Shown: one piece after another, positions 10,641 to 35,037 of the stretch
How the letters are laid out: every line of letters begins with the position of its first letter
Position numbering within the stretch: the first letter of the stretch is position 1
DNA from: Motilimonas sp. E26
GTDB lineage: Bacteria > Pseudomonadota > Gammaproteobacteria > Enterobacterales > CBDFNC01
Reading direction: 5' to 3'
DNA length: 41,979 nt
Assembly: GCF_021278025.1 (NCBI RefSeq)
Contig: NZ_JAIBHJ010000032.1
Coordinates: forward strand, 1-41,979
Notes under the pieces: generated by a model
Told to the model about the DNA's origin: nothing
Seen by the model: the letters and a program-made list of their open reading frames with translations, nothing else
Database searches by the model: none
Translations under genes and position numbers: made by a program

Positions 10641-10768
10641 GGTTTAATCTAACCTTCACCTACTATTTGAACGCACCTCTGAATGGCTACCAAAGCAACT
10701 GAACTAGCACGAGCGTAACGCAAGACTATCTATCCGATTTGCATAAACTGTGGCATGACTCACTTTTC

Positions 10769-10777
10769 TGATATACT
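10769..10777 (+). promoter_or_regulatory. Extended -10 promoter element for rhlE
   Basis: TG-A-TATACT is a good extended -10 element, 80 bases before the rhlE start codon. No clear -35 hexamer stands at the usual distance, which is acceptable for an extended -10 promoter. Confidence 0.4.
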
Positions 10778-10857
10778 GCCGCCCTGCTCTGTTGCACCCT
10801 GTTCATCAAAAATATCGGCTGCACAGTTTGCCCCTTTTTATTTATCTGAGACACCCC

Positions 10858-12213
10858 ATGCCATTTTCAACACTTGGATTATGCGCTCCAATCTTAAAAG
10901 CCATTAGCGAGCTTGAATACAGCGCGCCTACGCCGATCCAAAAACAGGCTATTCCTGAAATATTGCGTGGCAATGATCTGCTTGCCGCCGCGCAAACTGG
11001 TACCGGTAAAACCGCCAGTTTTGTATTGCCATTACTGCAAATGTTTCAAGACTTACCAAAAATTCGCCCTAAGCGCATTCGCGCCCTGATCTTAACGCCC
11101 ACCCGTGAGCTAGCCGTCCAAGTGGCAGATAACATTGCTAAATACAGCAAATATTTGCCGCTAACCTCCATGGCCATGTATGGCGGCGTTGATATTGCGC
11201 CGCAAAAGCAGCGTTTAATTGAAGGGATAGATATTCTGGTCGCCACGCCGGGGCGTTTATTGGATATGCACAGCCAGCGCGCGCTGCATTTTGATGAATT
11301 GTCGGTATTGGTGCTCGATGAAGCCGACCGCATGCTCGACATGGGCTTTATTGAAGACATTAATAAAATTATTGAACGCTTGCCTACCGAGCGTCAAAAT
11401 TTATTGTTCTCGGCCACCTTGTCAAAACAAGTGCGCTTTTTGGCAAAAACGGCGATTGAAGATCCCGTTGAGATTGAAATTGTTAAAGACAATGCCAGTG
11501 CGCCGCAAATTGAGCAGTGGCTAACCACGGTTGATAAAGACAAAAAGTCGGCCTTGATTAGTCATTTGATCACCGAACAAAACTGGCAACAAGCGCTGAT
11601 TTTTATTCAAACCAAAAAAGGCGCGGCTAAGTTAGTCAGCCAACTAGAAAAACGCGGCATTGCTGCTGAGGCCATTCACAGCGGCCGCAGCCAAGCGATA
11701 CGTGAACAACTATTAGTTGACTTTAAATCAGGTAAAATTCGCTTTTTAGTCGCCACCGGCATTGCCTCGCGCGGTATCGACATTGACGATCTTGAGCGCG
11801 TAGTGAACTACGACTTGCCCGATGAAGCCGATGATTACATTCACCGCATTGGTCGTACTGGCCGTGCTGGCGCCTGTGGTGAGGCGATTTCGTTTGTTTC
11901 TAAGGATGACTTTAGAAACCTGTGCGCCATTGAAAGCCGTTTAGGCCAGTTAATTGTGCGCAAAGAAATTGAAGGCTTTGCGCCAATCAAAGAAGTGCCG
12001 ATATCTATTTTGAACTTTAAGCCAAAATTTAATCCTGCTGCTAAACCTAAGCAGCGTAAAGAGAATACTGGCCAAGACAAAAAGCGCAGCGCATCCGCAG
12101 GCACAGTGAAACCACGTCACGACAAAAGTGGCAGACCAGGAAGTGACAAACCCGCGCAACCAGCGAAAAGCGGCGAGCGTGAAAACCCATGGACCAGCGG
12201 CAAGTACCGTTAA
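10858..12213 (+). CDS. rhlE: ATP-dependent RNA helicase RhlE
   Basis: A DEAD-box helicase of 451 residues from the ATG at 10858; an upstream TTG would add 22 residues with no family match. Motifs in order: Q motif 'TPIQKQAI', Walker A 'AQTGTGKT', 'PTRELA', 'DEAD', 'SAT', 'ATGIASRGID' and 'HRIGRTGR'. A basic, low-complexity tail follows (about residues 385-451, rich in Lys, Pro, Gly and Ser), as in many RhlE proteins, for RNA binding. The N-terminus ('FSTLGLCAPIL') is closest to RhlE rather than SrmB, DbpA or DeaD. RhlE remodels RNA in ribosome assembly and RNA turnover. It is followed 9 nt later by ppiB. Confidence 0.92.
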   Translation: MPFSTLGLCAPILKAISELEYSAPTPIQKQAIPEILRGNDLLAAAQTGTGKTASFVLPLLQMFQDLPKIRPKRIRALILTPTRELAVQVADNIAKYSKYLPLTSMAMYGGVDIAPQKQRLIEGIDILVATPGRLLDMHSQRALHFDELSVLVLDEADRMLDMGFIEDINKIIERLPTERQNLLFSATLSKQVRFLAKTAIEDPVEIEIVKDNASAPQIEQWLTTVDKDKKSALISHLITEQNWQQALIFIQTKKGAAKLVSQLEKRGIAAEAIHSGRSQAIREQLLVDFKSGKIRFLVATGIASRGIDIDDLERVVNYDLPDEADDYIHRIGRTGRAGACGEAISFVSKDDFRNLCAIESRLGQLIVRKEIEGFAPIKEVPISILNFKPKFNPAAKPKQRKENTGQDKKRSASAGTVKPRHDKSGRPGSDKPAQPAKSGERENPWTSGKYR

Positions 12214-12222
12214 TAAGGCGAT

Positions 12223-12729
12223 ATGATGATTACTTTTACCACCAACGTGGGCGACATTGAGATTGAACTGGATTTTGAAAATGCGCCGCTCAGTGCAAAA
12301 AACTTTTTACGTTACTGTGAAGAAGGTTTTTACGATTACACCATTTTTCATCGCACCATCAAGGGCTTTATGATCCAAGGCGGTGGCATGACGGCAAAAA
12401 TGAAAGAAAAACCGGCCCATGCCCCTATTCGCAATGAAGCCGACAATGGATTAAAAAATACCTTAGGCACCCTGGCTATGGCGCGCACCGACGAGCCACA
12501 TTCTGCCACCAGCGAATTTTTTATTAACGTGGCCGATAACGACTTTTTAGATCACACTGGCCGCACTGCTGATGGCTGGGGTTACGCCGTGTTTGGTAAG
12601 GTGACTGCAGGAATGGAAGTGGTGAAAAAAATCGCCCGCGCTAAAACCACCACCGTGGCGGGCTACGATGACGTGCCTGTTGCAACCATTACCATCGAAA
12701 AAGTGGTCATCAACCTCAGCTCTGTTTAA
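12223..12729 (+). CDS. ppiB: Cyclophilin-type peptidyl-prolyl cis-trans isomerase B
   Basis: A 168-residue cytoplasmic cyclophilin without a signal peptide. The active-site sequence 'FHRTIKGFMIQGG' holds the catalytic arginine, and 'SATSEFFINVADN' and 'GYAVFGKV' are the other family signatures. It catalyses cis-trans isomerisation of prolyl bonds during folding. An AAGG ribosome binding site lies before the first of two adjacent ATG codons. The 9-nt gap suggests cotranscription with rhlE. Confidence 0.95.
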   Translation: MMITFTTNVGDIEIELDFENAPLSAKNFLRYCEEGFYDYTIFHRTIKGFMIQGGGMTAKMKEKPAHAPIRNEADNGLKNTLGTLAMARTDEPHSATSEFFINVADNDFLDHTGRTADGWGYAVFGKVTAGMEVVKKIARAKTTTVAGYDDVPVATITIEKVVINLSSV

Positions 12730-12748
12730 GCCTATCGCAGCAAGATAA

Positions 12749-12838
12749 AGTATGCTTTACGGCAAAATTTCGTTTTCAGGGATGAAAACGCCAAGCGTAT
12801 AGGGAAATATTTACAGCGTTTTTGCAGTAAAGCATACT
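12749..12838. repeat. Nested inverted repeat, miniature-element-like (about 90 bp)
   Basis: AGTATGCTTTAC (12749-12760) is perfectly inverted at 12827-12838. The pairing continues inward over GCAAAA after one mismatch, giving arms of about 19 nt. Inside sits a second perfect hairpin, CGTTTTCA (12771-12778), loop GGGA, TGAAAACG (12783-12790). Nothing in it codes. The shape suggests a palindromic intergenic repeat or a MITE relic. It lies after the ppiB stop and could also act as an RNA stem at the operon end. Confidence 0.6.
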
Positions 12839-12979
12839 ATTGTGCTTATCCAAGGTTCGGGTTAATCAATACCGCGCACTCAATACTATAAAGCAGGCGC
12901 AAAGATAAACCACCTGCGAACAAGCAACGTAAGGTAGAATACCCATTTCATTACCAACGTAGTTTGAGCAATAATAACT

Positions 12980-13645
12980 ATGGCGCATATTAATTTAGAT
13001 TTTACGCAAAAAGTGGTTATCGATACCGCGCAGCAGCCTTGGGTCGACAGCCCACTGGCCGGCGTTACCCGCAAAATATTATCCCGCGAAGGCGCTGAAA
13101 GTGGCCACGCCACCAGCATAGTACGATACGCCGCTAACTCCTATTTCAAGCCTCATCATCATCCCATGGGCGAAGAAATTTTTGTACTTGAAGGCGTATT
13201 CTCCGATGAAAACGGCGACTATCCCGCCGGCACCTATCTGCGTAACCCGCCCGGCAGCTCACATCAGCCTTTTAGTAAAGAGGGTTGCGTAATTTTTGTA
13301 AAACTAAACCAATTTTTAGCCGATGATTTAACCAGCGTGCGGGTGAATACTAATGAAACACCTTGGTTAGCTGGGCAAGGTGGCTTGCAAGTAATGCCAT
13401 TACATCAACACGATGTTGAGCACACCGCGTTAGTAAAATGGCCAGCAGGTGAGCAATTTGTGCCCCATCGTCACTTTGGCGGCGAAGAGATATTGGTGCT
13501 TAGCGGCGAGTTTTGTGATGAATACGCGCGATACCCAAGCGGCACGTGGCTGCGTAGTCCACATATGAGTGAGCATCATCCCTATGTTGAGCAAGAAACC
13601 GTTATTTTGGTGAAGGTCGGGCATTTGGGCACTGCTACTCAATAA
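12980..13645 (+). CDS. Tandem double-cupin protein (ChrR-like cupin)
   Basis: A 221-residue protein made of two similar cupin halves. The first has 'FKPHHHPMGEEIFVLEGVF' followed by 'YPAGTYLRNPPGSSHQP'. The second has 'FVPHRHFGGEEILVLSGEF' followed by 'YPSGTWLRSPHMSEHHP'. Each half keeps the HxH, Glu and distal His metal ligands, so two metal sites (typically Zn, Fe or Mn) are expected. The fold and spacing are those of the cupin domain of the anti-sigma factor ChrR, but the N-terminal zinc-binding anti-sigma domain is absent and no ECF sigma gene is adjacent. Enzymatic or sensory role is unknown. The ribosome binding site is weak. Confidence 0.8.
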   Translation: MAHINLDFTQKVVIDTAQQPWVDSPLAGVTRKILSREGAESGHATSIVRYAANSYFKPHHHPMGEEIFVLEGVFSDENGDYPAGTYLRNPPGSSHQPFSKEGCVIFVKLNQFLADDLTSVRVNTNETPWLAGQGGLQVMPLHQHDVEHTALVKWPAGEQFVPHRHFGGEEILVLSGEFCDEYARYPSGTWLRSPHMSEHHPYVEQETVILVKVGHLGTATQ

Positions 13646-13664
13646 CAAAGATTAAGCGCTGTAA

Positions 13665-13688
13665 TATACCCATGCAACCTCCAGATGC
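13665..13688 (+). repeat. TATACCC dispersed repeat, copy 1 (degenerate)
   Basis: TATACCCA-TG-CAACCT-CC-AGATGC aligns without gaps to the copies at 24161-24184 and on the minus strand at 29099-29122. The right half of the palindrome has decayed here. Confidence 0.6.
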
Positions 13689-13717
13689 TTATCCAGCAAG
13701 TATTGCTTTTTGGATAA
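13689..13717 (+). terminator. Weak hairpin after the cupin gene
   Basis: TTATCCA (13689-13695) pairs with TGGATAA (13711-13717), with an inner GCAA/TTGC pair. No T tract follows, so it may only be an RNA stem. Confidence 0.3.
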
Positions 13718-13883
13718 ACCCTATTAAGGCGATCACAATTTAAGTCCCTTTCGAGCTAAATCAGCCTAATCCTCTTTCTAAATGCCAGTAGCTTATTGTA
13801 TTTAAAATCATTATGCATACACTGGCTAGCATCTTGTTTCATCAAAATAATCTCTTTGCATAAATCAGAGTAGGCTCTATCAC

Positions 13884-15440
13884 GTGGAAGTATCTGAATC
13901 TCTCGTACAAGAATTGGCGCCGGATCAAGCCTCAATTAATGCCGCAAAAAAATTACTTAAGCCCGGTAAGTGGCCGGCTTTAGGTCAAGCCGCAGATGTG
14001 AATACTATTTGGGGTGAGTGCCAAGGCTCAGGCTCAACGCCTTATTACACCATGGCTGATGTGTCTGATCACGGCTACAAATGCACTTGCCCGTCTCGTA
14101 AGTTTCCTTGTAAGCATGTATTAGCTTTGTTTTGGCAGTTTTCTGATTTACCCGACAACTTTACTAAAACCACGCCACCAGAATGGGTGAATGATTGGTT
14201 AGGCCGCCGCCGACGCAGCAGCGCTAAAGTGAGTGAGAGTGACGCCGCTGCAAAAGGCAATCACTCAACTGCCGCGACGAACGAGAAAAAATCAACCGCT
14301 CAAGTATCACTTAACCAAACAGTAACCGAATCGCCATTAAGTGAAGCAGCACAGGCTAAGCGCGAAGCAGATAAAGTCATGCGCGCGATGAAAAATCGCG
14401 AAAAAACGCGTGCCAGCGTGCAACAAGGTTTGGCTGAACTGCAACAATGGATTAATGACCAGCTAAGTAACGGCATTATTCGATTTTTAAAAGACAGCCA
14501 GGGTAAATGTCGACAAATTGCCGCACGCTTAGTGGACGCAAAAGCCGCGAATTTGGCCGCGCGCGTTGACGAACTCCCCGCCAGAATACTGGCTCGCCCA
14601 CTGCAACAACAACCTAATGCAGTATTACAAGAATTGGCTAAGTTGGCGTTGCTCACTGAAGCTTGGCTAACCAACCCTGATGATATTGACGTACATCGCG
14701 CGGTGATAGCCAGTGAAAGCCGCGAGCAGTTAATCAATGCATTGAGCAATGAAACAAGCGATGAACCTAGCCATGAAGTAAACAGCATTAGTGACGCTGT
14801 AACTGGCTTGTTGCCACAAAAAGTAACCGGCACTTGGCAAGTCATCGGCGAAAAGTCTGAAATGCGTCGCAATGGTTTGCTAGCATCCCTGCGTTGGATT
14901 GTACGTTTGCCTGAGGAGGCAGAGGGATATCATGTTTCTCAGCCTGAGAATCTTACTTTAGCGTTACTATTAGATTACTTACCCGTATCCAGTGGCAGCA
15001 GTCAAATCAAAACTGCCATGGGCAAGCAAATCAAGGGGGATGTAATTTTTTACCCCAGCCGAGTCCCCTATCGTGCCATTTTGGGTGAGCATCAATATCT
15101 AACGATCTGTGACACCCCTTTAACAACCGACAATGGCGAGTCTCATCAAAATAAACCAGCCCTTAGCTGGCGCGATCACTTTTTAAGCCAACATCAACAG
15201 CAGCCTTGGACGCATGAAGTGCCCTTTATGGCGGCTTCGGGCCGTGTTAGCCAAGACGACGCTGGCCAATACTGGTGGCATAGTGATGTCAGTAATGAAT
15301 CTGTGCTATTGATAAACCCAGATCTTGAACCTTTGGTGTTAGGTAGCCAGCTACGCTCAGCTTTGATGTTACTTGATGGACAATTCGCTGAGCTGATAAG
15401 TGTGGACACTGAAAAATGGGGAATGATTGCATGTCTGTAG
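13884..15440 (+). CDS. SWIM zinc-finger protein, first gene of the MoxR-VWA cluster (YehQ-like)
   Basis: A 518-residue protein starting at GTG. The SWIM signature CxCx(n)CxH is 'CTCPSRKFPCKH' (C67, C69, C76, H78), a zinc-binding fold used for DNA or protein binding. Residues about 120-200 are charged and low in complexity; the remainder has no recognised domain. SWIM proteins accompany YehL-type MoxR ATPases in many bacteria (Escherichia coli yehQ near yehL/M/P). The 3' end overlaps the next gene by 10 nt, so it is translationally coupled to it. Its likely job is substrate or nucleic-acid recognition for the system; this is inference. Confidence 0.8.
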   Translation: MEVSESLVQELAPDQASINAAKKLLKPGKWPALGQAADVNTIWGECQGSGSTPYYTMADVSDHGYKCTCPSRKFPCKHVLALFWQFSDLPDNFTKTTPPEWVNDWLGRRRRSSAKVSESDAAAKGNHSTAATNEKKSTAQVSLNQTVTESPLSEAAQAKREADKVMRAMKNREKTRASVQQGLAELQQWINDQLSNGIIRFLKDSQGKCRQIAARLVDAKAANLAARVDELPARILARPLQQQPNAVLQELAKLALLTEAWLTNPDDIDVHRAVIASESREQLINALSNETSDEPSHEVNSISDAVTGLLPQKVTGTWQVIGEKSEMRRNGLLASLRWIVRLPEEAEGYHVSQPENLTLALLLDYLPVSSGSSQIKTAMGKQIKGDVIFYPSRVPYRAILGEHQYLTICDTPLTTDNGESHQNKPALSWRDHFLSQHQQQPWTHEVPFMAASGRVSQDDAGQYWWHSDVSNESVLLINPDLEPLVLGSQLRSALMLLDGQFAELISVDTEKWGMIACL

Positions 15441-16966
15441 TAAACAGTAGCGCCTCGCACAACACGAACGAAATAGAGCAAGCACTCCACCAAGGCGAGC
15501 AATTAGCAAAAAAATGGTTAGTGGGTCATGGCCAAATTCAGTTAGACGATTTGCCAAACAGCTGGCATGGGCAATTAGCACAACTAGAGCCAGCACAACT
15601 CAATTTGCATGGCTTGATTTTAACCCAGCAGCAGCAATTGGTAATGCAATATCAACAACCGCCCAAGGGCCTAATCGCTGCGCCAGACTTACCCGAACTT
15701 GATTTCCCCTGTATTGCCCCTTCATTGCGGCCATTGTTTAAGCGAGTCTTAGCTCAATGTAAGCAGCAGTTAAATGCTGGTCATTTACCAGTATTAAACT
15801 TACTTTCTAGCCGGCAAGTGTGCGCGCATCCCAACGACTGGATGCCAACCAAACACTCTAACACCACACCAAGCCTTTATATGCCTTGGTTATATTGGTC
15901 GAATAAACAAATCAACAAATGGCAAGGGCAACCCACTAGTGAGCTAGACCCACAGGCTTGGGCCGAGCTATTCCCCGCAGAGAAGCGAGAGCGGCTAACG
16001 CAACTGCGCCATAGCGACCCCATGTTAGCAGGTCAATTAATTCAGCAAATAGCGCAAACTGAGTTAGCGGAAAAACGCCTGCAGCTCTATCAAATACTGA
16101 GCGTCAATCTCAGCGCTCATGACCAACCTATTTTGCAAGCTTGCTTGACGGATAAATCAAAAAAAGTAGTGACACTCGCTAAGCAATTACTGGCTCGATT
16201 AGGTTGCTACATTGAAGACGAACAAATGCAGCAACAGGCTCAAGAATTAGCGCAGTGGTACCAGATAAAATCCAAAGGCTTGCTAAAGCACACTACCCTA
16301 GTGGAGCCTGTGCCATTAAAGAACAAAAAGCAACAGGCCCTACGCACCGAGTTTATTGCTGAAGTATCCTTACCCGCTTTGGCCAGCGCGCTTAACATTT
16401 CGTTAGCACAATTGTGCCAGGGTTGGCAATTTGACCAACAACGCGAACAAGACAATCTTGGTTTTATCCGCAACGTATTTGATTCACTGCCCGAGCCCGA
16501 GCTGGACATATTTATCACCCGTTGCTGTGATGAGCTAAGTGCCGACGGTGTATTTTGGCATGTGTTAAACGCCATTCAATTACGGTCTTCAACGCACGCC
16601 GCTGCCGCCGTGTTATATCAGCTACTCGACAAACGCACCCTGCAGTTAAGCTTTGCCAGCTGGCTTTCGTTAATCGATGCCCCTTTAGCAAAGCTGAACT
16701 GGCTACAATTTAGCAGCTGCCATGCATGGGCTGAGCTGCAACAAGAAATCAAACAAGAGCTTAAGGAAAAACATTACCTTGAGCACTATCACAACGAGGC
16801 AGAGTTACGTGCTCTGGGATTAGTTTTACCGCCAGAGGTCGCGCAGCGTGTCTATGATGAGCTGATCGCGCTGGGCATGATGGCTGCCGATCCTATGTTA
16901 GACGCACTTAAACTCAATATTGGGCTTGGCTTAGCGCAAACCCAAAATTCAAGGAATTTATCATGA
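15431..16966 (+). CDS. DUF5691 family protein of the MoxR-VWA cluster
   Basis: A 511-residue protein rich in Leu, Gln and Ala, mostly helical by composition, with no signal peptide or TM segment and no catalytic motif I can name. The start at 15431 is preferred because GGGGA lies 8 nt upstream; an ATG 15 nt earlier would add five residues. The segment from about 195 to 250 ('LTQLRHSDPMLAGQLI', 'QACLTDKSKKVVTLAKQLLA') looks like HEAT-type helical repeats. DUF5691 genes usually sit beside SWIM and MoxR/VWA genes, as here. It overlaps the ATPase gene by 4 nt. Probably a scaffold or adaptor; the function is unknown. Confidence 0.75.
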   Translation: MSVVNSSASHNTNEIEQALHQGEQLAKKWLVGHGQIQLDDLPNSWHGQLAQLEPAQLNLHGLILTQQQQLVMQYQQPPKGLIAAPDLPELDFPCIAPSLRPLFKRVLAQCKQQLNAGHLPVLNLLSSRQVCAHPNDWMPTKHSNTTPSLYMPWLYWSNKQINKWQGQPTSELDPQAWAELFPAEKRERLTQLRHSDPMLAGQLIQQIAQTELAEKRLQLYQILSVNLSAHDQPILQACLTDKSKKVVTLAKQLLARLGCYIEDEQMQQQAQELAQWYQIKSKGLLKHTTLVEPVPLKNKKQQALRTEFIAEVSLPALASALNISLAQLCQGWQFDQQREQDNLGFIRNVFDSLPEPELDIFITRCCDELSADGVFWHVLNAIQLRSSTHAAAAVLYQLLDKRTLQLSFASWLSLIDAPLAKLNWLQFSSCHAWAELQQEIKQELKEKHYLEHYHNEAELRALGLVLPPEVAQRVYDELIALGMMAADPMLDALKLNIGLGLAQTQNSRNLS

Positions 16967-18042
16967 GTGACACCCTTCGCTTACCCGTTGAGCAAACCTA
17001 CCAACACGAACTTGACGCTTTAAAAGCCGAAGATACAGGCAACAAGCCTTATAACTGGGCATTATCCCCACAAGCAGTGGTGACCTATTTAGTGGGCGGT
17101 GAAACGCCATCAGGTGTCGAAATTTCGGCAAAATATATTGGCCAACGCCGCATCATTGAAACTGCTGTTGCTACCTTAGCCACCGATCGCGCTTTGTTAC
17201 TATTAGGGGTTCCGGGCACTGCAAAGTCGTGGGTGTCGGAGCATTTAAGCGCCGCGATCTGTGGTTGCAGCACACAAGTGATCCAATGTACTGCAGGCAC
17301 CGATGAAAATCAGATCCGCTACGGCTGGAACTACGCGCAACTGTTAGCTCATGGTCCAAGTAAAGCAGCGCTAGTCGCCACACCACTGTTTCGCGCTATG
17401 CAAGCAGGTAACTTATGCCGTTTAGAAGAACTAACCCGAATGGGCTCGGATGTACAAGATACCTTGATCACCGTGTTGTCAGAAAAAATGCTGCCTATTC
17501 CTGAGCTTAATGATGCCATCTTCGCGCAACGGGGCTTTAATATTATCGCCACAGCCAACAACCGCGATAAGGGAGTCAATGAGCTTTCATCAGCATTAAA
17601 GCGTCGCTTTAACGTGGTTGTGCTGCCCTTACCTGACTCTGTAGAACAAGAAGTCGCCATTATTAACAAACGCGTTGCCGAAATGGGTAAATCCCTTGAT
17701 TTACCTGTACCGAAAAACACCGCCGCCGAAATAGAAAAAGTCGTCGCTATTTTCCGCGAGCTAAGAGGGGGAGAAACCCTTGATGGTAAACTTACCTTAA
17801 AAACCACTTCCGGTAATTTATCGACCGCGGAAGCCATTGCCGTGATGGTCGGCGGGCTTAGTCAAGCAAACTGGTTTAACCAAGGCCAATTAAGTGCGGC
17901 AGAGATCAGCCAAAATTTACTCGGCGCGATTGTAAAAGATCCGGTACAAGATCGCGCCGTGTTAGAAGAATACCTTGAAACCGTGCTGAAAAAACGCAAA
18001 GGGTTTGAAGACTATTACCATCACTTAAATCAGGTGTTATAA
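16963..18042 (+). CDS. MoxR-family AAA+ ATPase (YehL-type)
   Basis: A 359-residue AAA+ protein. Walker A is 'GVPGTAKS' (residues 82-89), the Walker B region is 'LCRLEELTR', and the sensor-1 region is 'IIATANNRDKG'. The sequence around 'DVQDTLITVLSEKMLPIPE' is typical of MoxR ATPases, which work as chaperone-like machines with VWA partners to insert metals or remodel complexes. Its neighbours (DUF5682 and VWA genes downstream) match the order of Escherichia coli yehL-yehM-yehP, which supports the YehL subfamily. It is coupled to the upstream gene by a 4-nt ATGA overlap, and the DUF5682 gene follows 9 nt later. Confidence 0.9.
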   Translation: MSDTLRLPVEQTYQHELDALKAEDTGNKPYNWALSPQAVVTYLVGGETPSGVEISAKYIGQRRIIETAVATLATDRALLLLGVPGTAKSWVSEHLSAAICGCSTQVIQCTAGTDENQIRYGWNYAQLLAHGPSKAALVATPLFRAMQAGNLCRLEELTRMGSDVQDTLITVLSEKMLPIPELNDAIFAQRGFNIIATANNRDKGVNELSSALKRRFNVVVLPLPDSVEQEVAIINKRVAEMGKSLDLPVPKNTAAEIEKVVAIFRELRGGETLDGKLTLKTTSGNLSTAEAIAVMVGGLSQANWFNQGQLSAAEISQNLLGAIVKDPVQDRAVLEEYLETVLKKRKGFEDYYHHLNQVL

Positions 18043-18051
18043 GGTTAGCTG

Positions 18052-20370
18052 ATGGCACTTTCTGATATTCACTATTTTGGTATTCGCCACCATGGCCCAG
18101 GCTCAAGTAAACGGTTGTTGGCCGCCTTAGATCAATTGCAACCCACGCGTTTGCTTATTGAAGGGCCAGCCGACTGTGGCCAACTACTTCCTTTGCTTGC
18201 CCACCAGCAAATGAAGCCACCGGTAGCATTACTTAGCTACGTGGTAGAGCAAGCCGAAAGCAGTATTTTTTACCCCTTCGCTGAGTATTCTCCTGAATAT
18301 CAAGCTTGTTTATGGGCGCGGCAACATCAAGTGCCCGTTGAGTTTATTGACTTGCCCATTGCGGTGCGCCTAGCGCAGATGCAAGTTGAGTTAGCGCCAC
18401 TTCAAGCAGATGAAGCCCTAGGCGAAGCAAACGACAGCACTGATCAACCTGAGCCAAATTCCGAACTCGATGAAGATTTATCGGCTTTGCTGCGCGATCC
18501 CATTGCCGCACTCGCCCACATAGGCGGATACCAAGATGCGGAGGCTTGGTGGAACGACTTAATTGAACAAAACCGTGATGACAACTTGGCTATTTTTGCA
18601 CAAGTCGAACTCGCAATGACGGCACTCCGTGACCCCATTTCCCAAGACTCGCCCGCGCTTGTGCAAGACCATTTGCGTGAAGCATTTATGCGTTTAGAGA
18701 TCGCCAAAGCAGCAAAAACAGAAGATGGCCAGATAGCAGTCATTTGTGGTGCTTGGCATGTACCCGCTCTAAAAGCCAAACACGCGGCAAAAGATGATCG
18801 CGCTTTGGTTAAAACCTTACCCAAAAAACTCGCCGCCAGTAAATATAAATCAACTTGGATCCCATGGACCTCATCTCGATTAGCCAGCCAAACAGGTTAT
18901 GGTGCGGGCGTGAGTGCGCCGATGTGGTATCAACACCTTTGGCAACATCGCGACAATGAAGATCATATAGCACCTTGGCTGGTGGCCATTGCCGAGCAGT
19001 TACGTAAGCAAGGCGCCATCATTTCAACTGCGTCAGTGATTGAGGCGCAGCGACTATGTCAGAGCTTAGCCGCCGTGCGCGAACGACCTCAAGCCAGTTT
19101 TGAAGAAATTATCGATGCAGTGATCAGTTGCCTATGTTTCGGCGAGCAGGCTCAGTGGCAACAAGTCAGCGATAGCGTGTTACTGGGGCATCAAGTTGGC
19201 CAGATCCCTGATGATACTGAGCTGGCGCCGCTGCTGGAAGACTTACAAAGATTACAAAAAAAATACAAACTCAAGCCGGAAGCGCTTGGACGAGAGCATG
19301 CCTTAGATTTACGTAGCGAGATTGGCCAGAATAAATCGGTATTACTGCACCGGTTGCAACTGCTTGAAGTACCTTGGGGCAAATTGCTCAGCGCAGGGAG
19401 CAGTCGCGGCACCTTTAGGGAAAAGTGGTTATTAGTTTGGCAACCCGAATACGCCATCAAGCTAGTTGAAAATATTGTTCACGGCAGCACCATTGAACAA
19501 GCGGCGAATAATAAAGTGATGGCCACTCTCGCCCAAGAGTCTCACTTAGCCAAGCTGGCACAATTAGTACATGGTTGTTTAACGGCAGAGTTAACCACTG
19601 CTACAGCGTTTGGTTTAAATCAGTTAACCTTACGCGCAGGCCATGTCAGTGATTGTCACGATTTACTCACCAGTATTGCCCCACTTATAGACATCAGCCG
19701 CTACGGTACTGCTCGGACCATGTCACTGGCACAAATTGATGATCTAACAGAACGCTTAGCCGTTCAAGCGGCGCTGGCATTGCCTTATGCTTGTCGTAAT
19801 TTAAACGATGAAGAAACTTTGCACTATCGCGATAACATCAGTCAGGCTCATCGCGCATTAGTGCTGCATTTAGAGGCTGGGGATACACTCGCACTATGGT
19901 GGAAAGCCATTGAAACTATTGTACATAGTGACCAATCAAGCTTGTTATTAGTGGGGTTGTGCGCACGCTTATTGTATCAAGCTGAAAAGTTAAATCGTGA
20001 ACAACTCAGTTTAATGCTTAATAGAATGCTCTCGCCTGCTTTACCTCCTGCTCAAGCGGCGCGATTTTTCGATGGTTTTTTCAGCGATGCCGTCGATCAA
20101 CTCTTATATGACTCTGTGTTACTCAACGCAATAAACACTTGGCTACTACAACTGGAGGAAACGAATTTTATTGAGTTTTTACCTTTGTTCCGCCGTGTTT
20201 TTTCAAGCCTAGATACGATGGAGCGAAAACGGCTATTCGACACGCTATTTAATTATCGATTGCAAGGTGAAACCCTGCAAACGTTAGACATGACTCAACT
20301 CGATCGTTGGCAACATCAGCTACTGCAATTGACGAAACTCGCCCGCCGCGATAAGGATTGGCTTGCATGA
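18052..20370 (+). CDS. DUF5682 protein (YehM-like), possible TIKI/TraB/ChaN-like fold
   Basis: A 772-residue cytoplasmic protein, close in size to Escherichia coli YehM (DUF5682). The N-terminal quarter has three spaced motifs: 'IRHHGPGS' (11-18) with 'LLIEGPAD' (E37), 'REAFMR' (R209, E210, M213), and 'ICGAWHVPAL' (G233, H236). This order (Glu after a beta strand, then Arg-x3-Met, then Gly-x2-His) resembles the TIKI/TraB/EreA/ChaN superfamily of metal-dependent hydrolases or heme-binding proteins. That relation is my inference. The remaining 500 residues are helical, without a known motif. It lies between the ATPase and VWA genes and overlaps the latter by 4 nt. Confidence 0.8.
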   Translation: MALSDIHYFGIRHHGPGSSKRLLAALDQLQPTRLLIEGPADCGQLLPLLAHQQMKPPVALLSYVVEQAESSIFYPFAEYSPEYQACLWARQHQVPVEFIDLPIAVRLAQMQVELAPLQADEALGEANDSTDQPEPNSELDEDLSALLRDPIAALAHIGGYQDAEAWWNDLIEQNRDDNLAIFAQVELAMTALRDPISQDSPALVQDHLREAFMRLEIAKAAKTEDGQIAVICGAWHVPALKAKHAAKDDRALVKTLPKKLAASKYKSTWIPWTSSRLASQTGYGAGVSAPMWYQHLWQHRDNEDHIAPWLVAIAEQLRKQGAIISTASVIEAQRLCQSLAAVRERPQASFEEIIDAVISCLCFGEQAQWQQVSDSVLLGHQVGQIPDDTELAPLLEDLQRLQKKYKLKPEALGREHALDLRSEIGQNKSVLLHRLQLLEVPWGKLLSAGSSRGTFREKWLLVWQPEYAIKLVENIVHGSTIEQAANNKVMATLAQESHLAKLAQLVHGCLTAELTTATAFGLNQLTLRAGHVSDCHDLLTSIAPLIDISRYGTARTMSLAQIDDLTERLAVQAALALPYACRNLNDEETLHYRDNISQAHRALVLHLEAGDTLALWWKAIETIVHSDQSSLLLVGLCARLLYQAEKLNREQLSLMLNRMLSPALPPAQAARFFDGFFSDAVDQLLYDSVLLNAINTWLLQLEETNFIEFLPLFRRVFSSLDTMERKRLFDTLFNYRLQGETLQTLDMTQLDRWQHQLLQLTKLARRDKDWLA

Positions 20371-21590
20371 ACGATAATACAAATACGCCCCATCCAGACG
20401 AGTCTGGTAAGCAGCAAATAATTGAGCAGCCTGATGAAAAATCGCGCCGTTGGCGCTTAGCTTTAGGCGTCGATGATGAGCAACAACAGGCGCTGAGTGA
20501 ACGCGACCAACGCCTGTCTGGCGCATTGTCTGCCTTGTACGGCGAAGACCCGCAAAAAAGTAGTGGCCGAGGTAGCTTAGGACGTTCAGCGCCGAAAGTA
20601 TCAAAATGGTTAGGCGATATTCGCGAATTCTTCCCAGCACCAGTGGTTCAGGTAGTACAACGGGATGCCTTTGAGCGCTTAGGCCTAAAAGAAATGTTGA
20701 TGGAGCCTGAGTTTCTTGCCGCCATTGAAGCAGATGTTCACTTGATTGCGGACTTAATCAGCTTGCGCTCGGTGATGCCTGAAAAAACCATCGACACTGC
20801 GCGCCAAGTGATTGAAAAAGTGGTCAATGAATTGCTGGCTAAATTAGAGCAAAAGACCAGCGAAGCGATTCGAGGCGCGGTCAATAAGTCGAAACGCAGC
20901 TTTCGACCTCGCTTTAATGATATCGACTGGCACCGCACCATTCATGCTAATCTGCGCCATTATCAGCGTGAATATAACACTGTAGTACCAGAAAAATTGA
21001 TTGGATTTATGCGCCAACAGCGTCGTCTCGCCGATTTAGATGAGGTTATTTTGTGCGTTGACCAATCAGGCTCGATGGCAACGTCTGTGGTTTATAGCTC
21101 AATTTTTGCCGCAGTAATGGCATCAATACCGGCGGTCAAAACCAAATTGATTTGTTTTGACACCAGCATTGTTGATTTAACCGAAGAGTTAGCCGATCCG
21201 GTGAGTGTATTATTTGGCGTACAATTAGGTGGTGGCACCGACATTAACCAAGCCATTGCCTATTGTGAAAATCAGATTGAACAGCCAAGTAAAACCCATT
21301 TGCTACTGATCTCCGATTTATATGAAGGCGGCAATGAAACAGAGTTAAAGCAACGTATTGCACAGTTAATAAAGCAAGATGTTAACGTGATAACCCTGCT
21401 AGCACTGAGTGACGACGGTCGCCCTGCATACGATGCTGAAATGGCCAGCGAGTTTGCAACATTAGGCAGTCCGGTGTTTGCCTGCACTCCTGATCAGTTT
21501 CCTGATTTAATGGCCACAGCCTTAAAGCGTGAAGATGTGCTGGCTTGGGCTGCTGATCAAGATATTAAAGCCATTAGACCGACTGAATAA
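20367..21590 (+). CDS. VWA domain protein (YehP-like), partner of the MoxR ATPase
   Basis: A 407-residue protein from the ATG at 20367, which overlaps the preceding stop as ATGA. The N-terminal half is charged and helical. The C-terminal von Willebrand A domain starts near residue 225 and has a complete MIDAS: 'DQSGS' (232-236), the Thr of 'GGGTDIN' and the Asp of 'LLISDLYEGG'. VWA proteins with an intact MIDAS bind a metal and a ligand and are the standard partner of MoxR ATPases. The size is close to Escherichia coli YehP. It is the last gene of the cluster, followed by a hairpin and the convergent ywbE. Confidence 0.88.
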   Translation: MNDNTNTPHPDESGKQQIIEQPDEKSRRWRLALGVDDEQQQALSERDQRLSGALSALYGEDPQKSSGRGSLGRSAPKVSKWLGDIREFFPAPVVQVVQRDAFERLGLKEMLMEPEFLAAIEADVHLIADLISLRSVMPEKTIDTARQVIEKVVNELLAKLEQKTSEAIRGAVNKSKRSFRPRFNDIDWHRTIHANLRHYQREYNTVVPEKLIGFMRQQRRLADLDEVILCVDQSGSMATSVVYSSIFAAVMASIPAVKTKLICFDTSIVDLTEELADPVSVLFGVQLGGGTDINQAIAYCENQIEQPSKTHLLLISDLYEGGNETELKQRIAQLIKQDVNVITLLALSDDGRPAYDAEMASEFATLGSPVFACTPDQFPDLMATALKREDVLAWAADQDIKAIRPTE

Positions 21591-21602
21591 AAGTGATGAT
21601 GG

Positions 21603-21632
21603 ATAGCGGTGCGACAGCCAACGTGCCGCTAT
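21603..21632. terminator. Hairpin between the VWA gene and ywbE
   Basis: ATAGCGG (21603-21609) pairs with CCGCTAT (21626-21632) between two convergent genes. There is no strong T tract on either strand, so it is a candidate only. Confidence 0.35.
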
Positions 21633-21655
21633 TGTTAACCAGTTAAGCTTAAGTA

Positions 21656-21850
21656 TTAATCATTGATCTTTTTAACTCGCCCAACATCACCACTTTCTAA
21701 TCGTACCTTTATGCCATGAGGGTGATTCGCTGAGTTAGTCAAAATATCTTTAACCACTCCATCGGTCAGCTTGCCGCTGCGTTGATCTTGTTTTAGCACT
21801 ATCGACACGGACAAACCTTTTTTAATATCAGACCGATTAGTTCCATTCAT
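21656..21850 (-). CDS. ywbE: YwbE family protein
   Basis: A 64-residue protein matching the short YwbE family (DUF2196): 'RSDIKKGLSVSIVLKQDQRSG' in pieces, then 'TDGVVKDILTNS', 'HPHGIKVRLESGDVGRVKKI'. The fold is a small beta-rich, KOW/SH3-like unit. The function is unknown; the family is widespread in bacteria and yeast-like fungi. It is a single gene convergent with the VWA gene. Confidence 0.85.
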   Translation of the reverse strand: MNGTNRSDIKKGLSVSIVLKQDQRSGKLTDGVVKDILTNSANHPHGIKVRLESGDVGRVKKIND

Positions 21851-21990
21851 TTCTTTTTATTCCCATTGTGTATTTTGAAGCGGCAGTGTGCCTGAAGCCC
21901 ACTACCTGGGTCAACAATGCTGCAAGTCAGTGACAATGCCCCCTTGAGACTATTTGGCGTTTTTAAAAGATAGGAGAATTTCCCTTTCGG

Positions 21991-22007
21991 CTTAAGAAAT
22001 CGTTAAG
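21991..22007 (+). promoter_or_regulatory. PmrA/QseB-like response-regulator box
   Basis: CTTAAG-AAATC-GTTAAG is a direct repeat of half-sites with an 11-nt period, matching the known PmrA/QseB-type box (YTTAAK-N5-YTTAAK) except for a G in place of the second Y. It lies 73 bp before the PepSY gene. PepSY/cytochrome b pairs are often under such two-component systems, but the regulator is not in this window. Confidence 0.5.
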
Positions 22008-22079
22008 AAAACAGGGGAATACTCATCTGGCTCAAACCGCTAATGTTTATTTATTAGTTACTTTTATTAGGAGTTACCC

Positions 22080-22355
22080 ATGTTAACGAGATTTAAAAAC
22101 ATCCCCTTTATTGCCCTTGCGTTCGTCGCCAGCGCCAGTTATGCCGATCCACAATGTAGTCAAGCACCAGAATCTGATTGGATCCCATTTGATACCGCCA
22201 AACAACAGTTAGTTGACGAAGGTTATACGATCAAAAAATTCAAAAAAACCGATACTGGCTGTTATGAACTTTACGGTAAAGACAGCCAAGGTGAGCGCGT
22301 TGAAATTTATTTCGATCCAACCAACATGCAAGTGATTAAAGAGGAGCGTGGCTAA
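22080..22355 (+). CDS. Periplasmic PepSY domain protein
   Basis: A 91-residue exported protein with a signal peptide (about residues 1-22, ending 'SASYA'). The mature part is one PepSY unit: 'WIPFDTAKQQLVDEGYTIKKFKKTDTG' in pieces, followed by 'CYELYGKDSQGERVEIYFDP'. Two cysteines in the mature protein (in 'PQCSQ' and 'GCYEL') could form a disulfide. A TAGGAG ribosome binding site precedes the ATG. The stop overlaps the start of the cytochrome b gene, so the two are coupled and probably function together at the membrane. Confidence 0.85.
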   Translation: MLTRFKNIPFIALAFVASASYADPQCSQAPESDWIPFDTAKQQLVDEGYTIKKFKKTDTGCYELYGKDSQGERVEIYFDPTNMQVIKEERG

Positions 22356-22873
22356 TGGAAAATAGTCCTTCACAACCTATTTGGGATATGGTCGTCAGAC
22401 TCACTCACTGGGGGGTAGCAGGGTTATTTTTTGCTAACTTTTTCTTCACCGAAGAAGGCAGCGACATCCATGAATGGGTTGGTTATAGTTTAGTCGCCTT
22501 GGTTGTGGTGCGGTTGTGCTGGGGACTCATTACCGACTCTCCGGCTCGTTTATCACGCTTTTTTCCCTCTGTCACAGCAGCCATTGAGCACTTAAAAGAG
22601 GTTAAACAAACCAAGCAGGATACCCATCAAGGACATAATCCAGCTGGCGCGCTAATGGTTTGGTTTATTTGGCTCAATCTATTGCTGATAAGCTTATCTG
22701 GTTGGGCCATGGGAACAGATGCGTTTTGGGGTGAAGACTGGGTGAAAGAAGTTCATGAGTTTTTCGTCAACCTGACTATGCTAGCTGTTTGTGGCCACGT
22801 TTTTGCCGTGTTTGCCATGACCAAAATAACCAAAAATAATTACCTTAAAGGGATAATTAAAGGTCATCGCTAA
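22355..22873 (+). CDS. Cytochrome b561-type membrane protein
   Basis: A 172-residue di-heme-type cytochrome b with four TM helices. Candidate axial histidines lie in 'RLTHWG', 'DIHEWVGY', 'EVHEFF' and 'CGHVFA'. This is the cytochrome b/b6-like (Ni-hydrogenase b-type) group that moves electrons between the quinone pool and a periplasmic partner. Its first base is the last base of the PepSY gene. The pairing suggests a small redox module, whose electron partner is unknown. Confidence 0.87.
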   Translation: MENSPSQPIWDMVVRLTHWGVAGLFFANFFFTEEGSDIHEWVGYSLVALVVVRLCWGLITDSPARLSRFFPSVTAAIEHLKEVKQTKQDTHQGHNPAGALMVWFIWLNLLLISLSGWAMGTDAFWGEDWVKEVHEFFVNLTMLAVCGHVFAVFAMTKITKNNYLKGIIKGHR

Positions 22874-22884
22874 CTCATTATCCG

Positions 22885-22914
22885 CCGCCTGCAGGTAGCA
22901 ATCTGCTCAGGCGG
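22885..22914 (+). terminator. Hairpin after the cytochrome b gene
   Basis: CCGCCTG (22885-22891) pairs with CAGGCGG (22908-22914), with an inner AGCA/TGCT pair. It lies 11 nt after the stop. The T tract is poor. Confidence 0.45.
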
Positions 22915-23088
22915 TGCATCATATTCTCCTATCATCACGCAACTAACTTAGGTCGCCTCATTTATCACTTATTGGTCAATGAAATTATTTTTTCCTGCTA
23001 TGCTCTTTATTATCTTTATAGTATTACGTTTTGTGCATTTAGCTGTCGCGCAACAATTGCAATCCATTAACATAGTTAGGAATTAATT

Positions 23089-23502
23089 ATGAATTTGTAT
23101 CGTATCGTGTACGCCAGCACCCTCTCTGAATCGTTTAGCAGTCAAGATATTGAACATATTCTAGCGTCTTCTCGGCGCAACAATAAAAAGCAGGATGTGT
23201 CGGGTATGCTTTTATTTAGCCATCGTTATTTTCTGCAATGTTTAGAAGGATCGAGAGATAACATTAATCAAACATATCAGCGTATTTTAAGTGACGAACG
23301 CCATTGTCGAGTAACTATTGTCAGCTATGAAAATGTTACACAGCGTGAGTTTTGCGCTTGGTCAATGGGCTATGTGCCTGAATCTCATTTAACAAGAGAG
23401 CTGCTGTTTAAGTTCTCGGCTTCAGCAACCTTTGACCCTTATACTCTATCTAACGTCAGCGCATTGGCGTTATTAAAAAGTTTACATGGAACCGTTATTT
23501 AG
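23089..23502 (+). CDS. Short BLUF-domain blue-light sensor
   Basis: A 137-residue protein that is little more than one BLUF domain (about 1-95) with a 40-residue tail. The residues of the photocycle are all present: Y8, N32, Q50 in 'YFLQCLEG', W91 and M93 in 'CAWSMG'. Such domains bind FAD and switch the Tyr-Gln hydrogen bond network in blue light. No effector domain is fused, so the output must go through a partner protein, as in other short BLUF proteins (PixD, BlrB). It is a single-gene unit with no regulator or GGDEF/EAL gene adjacent; the partner is unknown. Confidence 0.9.
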   Translation: MNLYRIVYASTLSESFSSQDIEHILASSRRNNKKQDVSGMLLFSHRYFLQCLEGSRDNINQTYQRILSDERHCRVTIVSYENVTQREFCAWSMGYVPESHLTRELLFKFSASATFDPYTLSNVSALALLKSLHGTVI

Positions 23503-23509
23503 AATAAAG

Positions 23510-23540
23510 CTTGGCAGTATCGATTAAGTAACCTGCCAAG
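23510..23540. terminator. Inverted repeat between two convergent genes
   Basis: CTTGGCAG (23510-23517) pairs with CTGCCAAG (23533-23540). The structure spans the stop codon of the fumarylacetoacetate hydrolase gene and lies just after the BLUF stop. It is a plausible shared terminator with weak T tracts. Confidence 0.4.
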
Positions 23541-24135
23541 AATGTTCAACAAGCAAGGTTTTTTGCTGAAAAATTTTACCCACAAACTGGTCGCCTACAT
23601 TAAGTTTACCTACCCCTTGTGGTGTGCCTGTCATCAATAAATCGCTATCATTAAGGGTCATAAAACTGCTTACTTCTGCGACTATGTCTGCAGGCTTGTA
23701 GATCATTAAATCATAAGTGGCTAACTGAATCAGTTGCTCGTTAATATATAGCTCCATACGTAGCTCACTCACATCACCTTTAAACGGGACAAACTGGCTG
23801 AATACCGCTGATTTATCAAACGCTTTGGCTCGCTCCCAAGGAAGCCCTTTAGCCTTTAAAGAGGATTGTAGCGCCCTTTTCGTCAGGTCTAAACCAACAC
23901 CCACTGCAAGTAATTGTCCAGACTGTAAAGCAAACGTTATTTCTGCTTCATAATGCACCTCATCATCGGCACTGGTACATAACTCCCTAGCAATAGCGGA
24001 GTTAGGTTTAACAAAGATCACGGGGTGATCTGGCGTTTCATTGCCCAACTCTTGGATATGTGCGACATAATTACGGCCAATACAAACGACTTTCGACGGA
24101 TAAACTGTTTCGCCATCTACTAATACTCCATTCAT
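23524..24135 (-). CDS. Fumarylacetoacetate hydrolase family protein
   Basis: A 203-residue protein from the ATG at 24135, chosen because AGGAG lies 6 nt upstream; a TTG would add two residues. It is the short, single-domain FAH form (like YcgM): 'KVVCIGRNYVAHIQELGNE', 'PVIFVKPNSAI', 'VHYEAEITFAL' with the metal-binding Glu pair, and 'DLLMTGTPQGVG'. Family members act as hydrolases or decarboxylases of acylpyruvates and related diketo acids with Mg or Mn. It is a single gene with a dispersed repeat upstream. The exact substrate cannot be inferred. Confidence 0.88.
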   Translation of the reverse strand: MNGVLVDGETVYPSKVVCIGRNYVAHIQELGNETPDHPVIFVKPNSAIARELCTSADDEVHYEAEITFALQSGQLLAVGVGLDLTKRALQSSLKAKGLPWERAKAFDKSAVFSQFVPFKGDVSELRMELYINEQLIQLATYDLMIYKPADIVAEVSSFMTLNDSDLLMTGTPQGVGKLNVGDQFVGKIFQQKTLLVEHSWQVT

Positions 24136-24159
24136 GAACAACTCCTATGCTGATGTAAC

Positions 24160-24194
24160 TTATACCCAATCAACCTAGAGATGCTTGGGTATAA
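24160..24194. repeat. TATACCC dispersed palindrome, copy 2 (complete)
   Basis: TTATACCCAA (24160-24169) and TTGGGTATAA (24185-24194) form a perfect 10-bp inverted repeat around a 15-nt centre. The core matches the copies at 13665 and 29099. It lies in the leader of the FAH gene. Confidence 0.7.
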
Positions 24195-24299
24195 TCGATA
24201 AGCTCGCAAGATATCACCTTAAATCGATAGCAACAATGTCAAGCGTTAAGAGAATTGAGCACTAAAAACTCAACCTGTCTCAAGCAGTCTGTAGGAAAA

Positions 24300-24329
24300 A
24301 GCCCTGCAATCAGTAATGAAAGCAGGGCT
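24300..24329 (-). terminator. Rho-independent terminator of katG
   Basis: On the minus strand, AGCCCTGC and GCAGGGCT form an 8-bp stem followed by a T5 run, 25 nt after the katG stop. This is a canonical intrinsic terminator. Confidence 0.85.
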
Positions 24330-24353
24330 ATTGAATACTAACATTTAAAACGA

Positions 24354-26534
<2,181 letters not shown>

Positions 26535-26723
26535 TTACTGTCTCCCTCTCATAATATTGATTGTTCAGTCAGTTGCTTCGGTCTTCGTCGCATTTTACGT
26601 TGCGATAACAGCACCACATGCTAACGATGCAGTCTTCAACCTATTTCAAGTTAAGTACATGCTACGCTTACAAGTTTAGAATAGATCATTAATTATCTTT
26701 TAGTATTAAGCTGGCCGTCTCTG

Positions 26724-33946: not shown

Positions 33947-34523
33947 TGCCAATGGGCTGTCAAAATAACCTTGGCATGCACCCACACCAAGAATGATAAA
34001 TCGTGTCATTTTTATTTACACTTCAAACGGGATAGCGTTGAAGTGTTAGCCTAGCTTGCGCTATTGCTGGCTATTTTATTACGTTATTTTGCCCTGAGAT
34101 TTGGCCTCAGTGTGGCATCAAGCAAGACGTAGGCACGCTGCTGATTTTTCGGCATTTTAACTTGAAAAGCGCTAAACACAACAATTATATACCGCTTCAG
34201 AAAAAATAATTTAAACCAATTAAATTCAACAACTTAAACACAGTAATTTTTCCTCTTTACAGCAACTGTAGGGTACAAAGGGCAATCAACAGCTAATGGT
34301 AATCATAAATTACCTGCTTACTCATCACCTAAAGAATCGTCATTCATGCAACAAATATCTGGCCAATAAGGCACGCAGATGAATGCAGTTCCGATGATGA
34401 CGAGCAATAAAACATAGCTATTTACCCTCTCACAAAAGTGCAAAGATCCGAACCATTCAATTAGATCACATTTTTTGTGTTTTTTTTGCACAGCTGACTT
34501 GACCAACAATTTATCTCGATATA

Positions 34524-34539
34524 CTGTATACATATACAG
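34524..34539 (+). promoter_or_regulatory. LexA (SOS) box of sulA
   Basis: CTGTATACATATACAG matches the Escherichia coli LexA consensus (CTG-N10-CAG with an alternating TA centre) almost perfectly. It lies 27 bp before the sulA start codon. A TTGACC -35 candidate (34499-34504) and a TACTGT -10 candidate (34522-34527) place it over the promoter, as expected for repression by LexA. Confidence 0.92.
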
Positions 34540-34566
34540 CATGTATATTTAAACAAGAGGCGAACT

Positions 34567-35037
34567 ATGCAGCTCATATCTCATTCATTATCTCAGCCAA
34601 ATCTTAAGTCAATGACAATCGATTTTTCCAGTATGATCAATAAATTGGATGAGAAAAGAGCCTTTTCCGAGCAGCCTATCTATCAGCGTGCACGCCATGA
34701 CTCTCTGCTCAATAAATTAATACACTATGGTCAGCAGCCGGGTTGGCTTGTCTTTATTGATCCCCCAGCTAAATTAAATTTACCGCTGTTGGCTAGCTTA
34801 GGTTTGGACTGCCAAAAAATATTATGCATCAAATCACATCAGCAACTTAGTAAGGTACGGTGCTTAGAGTTAGCATTGCAATCTACACACACGCGTTTAG
34901 TAGTTTGCAGTATTGACGGTTTAGAAAGTGCAAGCTTGTCAAAGTTAAAAGCGGCTGCTCGCATAGGCATGGGCTCGGCTATTTTTCTGGATGGAAACGA
35001 TATTGCTCAAGCGCAGCAAACAACTAGATTACATTAG
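34567..35037 (+). CDS. sulA: SulA-like SOS cell-division inhibitor
   Basis: A 156-residue protein whose core aligns with SulA: 'QPGWLVFIDPPAKLN', 'LLASLGLDCQKILCIKSH' and 'CLELALQSTHTRLVVCSID', then a Gly-rich end 'ARIGMGSAIFL'. SulA binds FtsZ monomers and blocks Z-ring assembly after DNA damage. AGAGG precedes the ATG, and the strong LexA box upstream makes SOS control very likely. Unlike Pseudomonas and Shewanella, where sulA follows lexA, this copy stands alone. The identification rests on both similarity and control; overall similarity to Escherichia coli SulA is low. Confidence 0.82.
   Translation: MQLISHSLSQPNLKSMTIDFSSMINKLDEKRAFSEQPIYQRARHDSLLNKLIHYGQQPGWLVFIDPPAKLNLPLLASLGLDCQKILCIKSHQQLSKVRCLELALQSTHTRLVVCSIDGLESASLSKLKAAARIGMGSAIFLDGNDIAQAQQTTRLH

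Follow-up and report, generated by a model that had tools for sequence, protein, structure and literature searches.

MoxR–VWA pairs are widespread. Known MoxR proteins presumably act on other complexes, maturing or activating them, and a YehL subfamily has already been named among them (PMC3893208, available text). MoxR–vWA ternary systems have further been described as conflict systems (PMC7159879, eLife 2020, available text). Here we analyse a MoxR–VWA locus on a 41,979-nucleotide (nt) stretch of Motilimonas sp. E26 (contig NZ_JAIBHJ010000032.1; the whole stretch is called the window). Five co-directional genes on the + strand occupy positions 13884–21590 in the order SWIM–DUF5691–MoxR–DUF5682–VWA_CoxE according to the open reading frame (ORF) listing, and are referred to as the cassette:

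13884..15440, + strand: SWIM zinc-finger protein, 518 amino acids (aa), GTG start (Pfam)
15431..16966, + strand: DUF5691 protein, 511 aa, HEAT-like repeats (Pfam)
16963..18042, + strand: MoxR AAA+ ATPase, YehL type (Pfam, alignment, comparison with YehL)
18052..20370, + strand: DUF5682 protein with a probable N-terminal TraB/Tiki-like domain (~1–245) and a mostly helical C-terminal part (Pfam, model, profiles)
20367..21590, + strand: VWA_CoxE protein with presumed metal-ion-dependent adhesion site (MIDAS) residues (Pfam, alignment)
13633..21654, no strand: 8.0-kb block missing in a congener, contains the five genes (congener comparison)

All five proteins score above the Pfam cut-offs (SWIM 26.8 bits, DUF5691 72.1, AAA_5 123.6, DUF5682 690.5, VWA_CoxE 169.7), and an NCBIfam scan of the five gave nothing convincing (top match MadB ATPase, 52.7 bits against a cut-off of 475).

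Conservation of the five genes and of their core

The five genes form one conserved unit. We draw this conclusion because they co-occur in relatives, DUF5691 and window-type DUF5682 fall in the same genomes of a set of 249, some of the genes are fused in certain loci, and all five are missing from an empty site in a congener. Conservation was determined for the best 80 of 588 DUF5682 relatives on genome contigs, those most like the window DUF5682, and a family was scored as present when found anywhere within the fetched stretch of a locus. Profile searches found all five families in 67 of the 69 loci with enough flank, a figure that holds for window-type DUF5682 only and was obtained with family profiles trained on the same loci. 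Both exceptions (L079 and L080) are cyanobacterial; the remaining 11 of the 80 loci are short at one end, and four of these still hold all five families. A tree of 60 related loci and the window spans Pseudomonadota, Bacteroidota, Actinomycetota, Cyanobacteriota, Chloroflexota, Verrucomicrobiota, Planctomycetota, Acidobacteriota and others.

Gene order is mostly constant among these loci. The five genes stay together where the order is permuted (L044, L084), where the SWIM–DUF5691 pair is divergent (L098) and where a gap separates MoxR from DUF5682 (L070, L099). By profile search, SWIM and DUF5691 are fused in four loci (L029, L073, L086, L097) and DUF5682 and VWA in one (L032, Streptomyces atratus); Pfam, applied to three of the fusions, recognised both parts in L032 and L097 and DUF5691 alone in L029. 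A MoxR–DUF5682 fusion considered for two loci was rejected: the long frames were dropped, as their coordinates show that the parts do not lie in one frame. Pairwise distances within the five families correlate at 0.82–0.92 across 77 loci, compared with at most 0.126 in permutations (500 per pair); co-inheritance is part of the cause. On a Methylosinus trichosporium plasmid (L028), the VWA gene of the cassette (14226–15394) is in pieces in different frames and unannotated.

An independent set of 249 genomes of the phylum, which shared genome handles indicate to be the same in our DUF5682, DUF5691 and DUF4132 searches, contains DUF5682 in 11 genomes. DUF5691 exceeds the cut-off in five, exactly those with a window-type cassette (G000, G028, G082, G111, G196); matches below the cut-off occur in G009 and G209, both genomes without a DUF5682 match.

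The congener G250 is 96.9% identical to the window over 10726–13632 and 92.2% over 21655–26693, and 71 bp replace 13633–21654 between them. In the simplest reading, the 8.0-kb block was gained or lost as one piece. A second congener, G249, carries the cassette at a different site, with none of five window-flank proteins in the surrounding 20 kb; in a third, G251, MoxR and VWA accompany a yeh-type DUF5682. The distribution is patchy, with DUF5682 in 9 of 79 relatives. No integrase was found among the eight window proteins scanned with Pfam. Foreign base composition was considered and rejected: the cassette has a GC content of 46–49%, similar to the left flank, and there is no GC break at the left edge.

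The ORF listing bears out the gene arrangement given by the first-pass annotation (one strand, overlaps of 10, 4 and 4 nt and one gap of 9 nt), provided that the later starts are used for DUF5691 and VWA. With ATG 15431, DUF5691 overlaps SWIM by 10 nt (25 nt with ATG 15416); MoxR overlaps DUF5691 by 4 nt and is separated from DUF5682 by 9 nt; VWA overlaps DUF5682 by 4 nt with ATG 20367 (13 nt with TTG 20358). The accompanying proposal of a single coupled system gains support from co-occurrence, fusions, the empty site and the correlated distances. Co-occurrence by chance alone, the outcome that the annotation had set against its proposal, is countered by the five-family loci and by the block missing whole in a congener.

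The annotation had also pointed to a partial version in Escherichia coli, and E. coli K-12 indeed has yehL, yehM, yehP and yehQ, together with the DUF4132 gene yehI and without a DUF5691 match. The window MoxR is 40% identical to YehL (358 aa, E 9.6e-72), DUF5682 25.5% to YehM and VWA 33% to YehP. No member of the yeh cluster matches the window SWIM or DUF5691 protein significantly; YehQ shares with the former only the SWIM motif. Records from Rhizobium, Methylosinus, Hymenobacter (first two genes fused) and Deinococcus follow the order SWIM–DUF5691–MoxR–DUF5682–VWA, and those from E. coli and Iodobacter the order DUF4132–MoxR–DUF5682–VWA–SWIM; Streptomyces has a form related to the DUF4132 architecture, with a SWIM match below the cut-off. 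DUF4132 occurs in 10 of the 249 genomes, namely all seven with a yeh-type DUF5682 and three without. MoxR–DUF5682–VWA is thus the core common to the window cassette and E. coli yehLMP, and we infer that the remaining genes serve as interchangeable receptor modules.

Three further loci touch on this comparison. In L144 (3423–11424), a SWIM gene, a gene for a 682-aa protein that matches no Pfam family, MoxR, DUF5682 and VWA follow one another, a cassette that may bridge the two architectures. The window genome itself encodes a DUF4132 protein that stands alone and also matches DUF5724 and DUF7737 (L143, 9821–12685); a search of the surrounding 20 kb found none of the five cassette families. On an E. 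coli IncF plasmid (L026), IS26 copies enclose the yeh cluster, with resistance genes next to it, suggesting that IS26 carried chromosomal DNA.

A probable TraB/Tiki-like domain and its partner proteins

The N-terminal domain of DUF5682 is probably of TraB/Tiki type. It matches the TraB/PrgY/GumN profile at E 1.4e-4 to 1.9e-4 over 190 columns, the whole domain, in searches that included shuffled and family controls and gave a moderate probability. Residues H13, E37, R209 and H236 are kept in 61 of 61 rows of an alignment mixed with E. coli-type DUF5682, and they fit the G-x2-H, E, R, G-x2-H set of the TraB/Tiki family; because of this domain and these residues, we predict a peptidase or esterase. 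The statement in the annotation that no obvious target enzyme is encoded nearby is doubtful, since DUF5682 itself looks like a domain of this type with matching invariant residues. The Pfam TraB model gives no match to the window DUF5682, and the first glutamate of the 2His/2Glu set (two residues before the first histidine; PMC6254334) is unmatched. Structurally, the N-terminal domain comes nearest to a subunit of a respiratory complex. A Foldseek search with the model of DUF5682 brought up weak matches only, chiefly to helical repeats, and TraB rows came solely from a VIA-align second look at the model. The C-terminal part of the model resembles a helical-repeat scaffold. Sequence searches of the PDB with profiles of DUF5682, SWIM and VWA found no convincing relative. 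EreA and ChaN were set aside as kin of DUF5682, as their profiles gave no match, which leaves room for distant kinship; ChaN matches the TraB profile locally only (E 9.3e-4, 49 columns).

The two core partners retain their motifs. In MoxR, the sequence GxPGTAKS, E155–E156, N199 and R214–R215 are invariant in 22 rows, at places which we take to be Walker A, Walker B, sensor 1 and the arginine finger; at the Walker B place all 22 rows, those of yeh-type members among them, have EE where DE is usual. The window MoxR has YehM- and YehP-like neighbours, as expected of the YehL subfamily. In VWA, the metal-site residues D232, S234 and S236 (D-x-S-x-S) and D317 are invariant and T291 is kept in at least 90% of 22 rows; we assume that D232-x-S-x-S, T291 and D317 form the MIDAS.

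The zinc-finger and HEAT-like partners recognised by the first-pass annotation recur in the relatives. Pfam finds SWIM in 49 of 49, with the zinc ligands C67, C69, C76 and H78 (CxC...CxH) invariant in 49 rows. The model of the SWIM protein has the SWIM domain, a helical middle and an OB-like region (~310–412) that structurally resembles the OB domains of PriB, SSB, RPA and BRCA2. HEAT_2 matches 13 of 49 DUF5691 relatives when E values up to 0.5 are allowed (best 1.6e-5).

Possible functions of the cassette

We tentatively favour, at somewhat less than even chance, a reading of the cassette as an ATP-driven protein machine in which MoxR–VWA activates or gates the predicted DUF5682 hydrolase and SWIM/DUF5691 serve as receptor. 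MoxR hexamers with VWA as adaptor would bind and act on DUF5682, whose gene lies between theirs in either architecture and, in one record, is joined to VWA. ATP hydrolysis would then either switch the Tiki-like hydrolase on or feed substrate to it. The SWIM/OB protein and the HEAT-like DUF5691, one protein in some bacteria, may form the receptor, which would recognise a trigger or substrate, either nucleic acid or protein. A far-reaching version appears unlikely: a bacteria-wide, undescribed class of ATP-gated Tiki-type proteases, in which a nucleic-acid-sensing SWIM/OB and HEAT receptor triggers the MoxR–VWA motor to activate DUF5682, with the receptor swapped for DUF4132/WGR in the yeh version, so that one core serves several sensors.

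A conventional MoxR–VWA maturation chaperone is possible, if on the unlikely side. DUF5682, SWIM and DUF5691 would then be scaffold or adaptors, the TraB-like domain non-catalytic and the client complex encoded elsewhere. Such a role would agree with that ascribed to known MoxR proteins in the available text of PMC3893208, with the likeness of the DUF5682 C-terminus and DUF5691 to helical-repeat scaffolds, and with the respiratory-complex subunit nearest to the DUF5682 N-terminal domain. However, the surroundings of the cassette across 89 loci show no recurring specific client gene; the neighbours that do recur are ABC-type ATPases (13 loci), short-chain dehydrogenases (10), sensor/regulator proteins (9) and a single doubtful frame (4). 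The residues presumed to be catalytic stay invariant across the two architectures, a constraint that a pure scaffold would not require.

A defence or conflict system, in which SWIM/OB/HEAT sense foreign nucleic acid and MoxR–VWA releases a DUF5682 effector, is quite improbable. The patchy, all-or-none presence with a different site in another congener would suit it, as would the ternary conflict systems on record (PMC7159879, available text) and a match of the window MoxR to Pfam bpMoxR (27.4 bits, cut-off 27). The searches nevertheless lend no support to the conflict-system reading raised by the annotation. PADLOC gave weak matches only on the five proteins (best E 0.0071). From 192 flanking ORFs of 150–520 aa within 3.5 kb, 148 were drawn and 147 scanned; at E 1e-10, PADLOC yielded nine family-member matches, a count without a control set, and four of these are SspA/DndA, which we take to be cysteine-desulfurase-like. 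VWA carries no added C-terminal domain in 22 aligned rows, which end close together, and no relative is encoded in any of 19 viral stretches that match the pattern; one unannotated phage record turned up. We regard as similarly improbable a DNA-damage or genome-maintenance system in which SWIM/OB binds single-stranded DNA, a part that WGR or DUF4132 proteins may play in the yeh architecture, and the machine removes a protein from DNA. It would draw on the OB resemblance described above, on the WGR-domain protein YehF encoded ~3 kb before yehI and on the Deinococcus DUF4132 operon DRA0165–0166, induced upon DdrO depletion (PMC8533742, available text). No SOS box precedes the window cassette, and 77 upstream regions contain none by a strict pattern and no excess by looser ones.

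Outside the cassette, a LexA-type box whose CTGT-N8-ACAG core is exact lies at 34522–34541, just before a 156-aa frame (34567–35037) that is SulA-like by appearance, not by family search. The cassette is flanked by a ChrR-like cupin gene upstream and by PepSY and cytochrome b561 genes downstream (Pfam). A strong hairpin repeat of ~155 bp at 12709–12867 (fold z-score −3.8) is MITE- or REP-like (miniature inverted-repeat transposable element; repetitive extragenic palindrome) and has 40 scored matches in the same genome and many in one congener.

Comparison with known systems

The literature searched, which lacks most subscription papers, contains no paper that names DUF5682 or DUF5691, none that joins any two of MoxR, 'SWIM zinc finger' and DUF5682, and no client or function assigned to the YehL branch; the words SWIM, YehL, EreA and TraB are missing from the main text of PMC7159879. 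The MoxR–VWA module is of a known kind; because no match was found there, the hydrolase assignment and the two-architecture picture appear new within this literature. With a likely Tiki-type hydrolase at its heart, the cassette would be a specific, testable machine, and E. coli yehLMP would gain a first testable function.

RavA–ViaA of E. coli likewise consists of a MoxR and VWA pair. However, the window MoxR is only 22% identical to RavA (E 0.045) and far closer to YehL, in a comparison restricted to these two MoxR subfamilies, and the window VWA matches ViaA at E 0.004. The MoxR–vWA ternary systems (VMAP, iSTAND and others; PMC7159879) share the clustering of a MoxR ATPase, a vWA co-chaperone and a third conserved protein. 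Here the third protein is DUF5682, the only name that Pfam gives it, and no effector is fused to VWA in the 22 rows compared.

DUF5682 is tied to TraB/PrgY/GumN of the Tiki superfamily by the whole-domain profile match and by the H/E/R/H residues, and its best structural matches may point the same way. In contrast to that family, it adds a helical extension of ~500 residues and stands beside MoxR and VWA genes. If our favoured reading is true, it links an AAA+ chaperone to this superfamily, which is not known to need one. A close relative of the cassette is the E. coli yeh cluster (yehI–yehK–yehL–yehM–yehP–yehQ), in which homologous MoxR, DUF5682 and VWA genes keep this order and a SWIM protein occurs as well, whereas DUF4132 (YehI) takes the place held here by DUF5691 and the SWIM gene, first in the window cassette, comes last.
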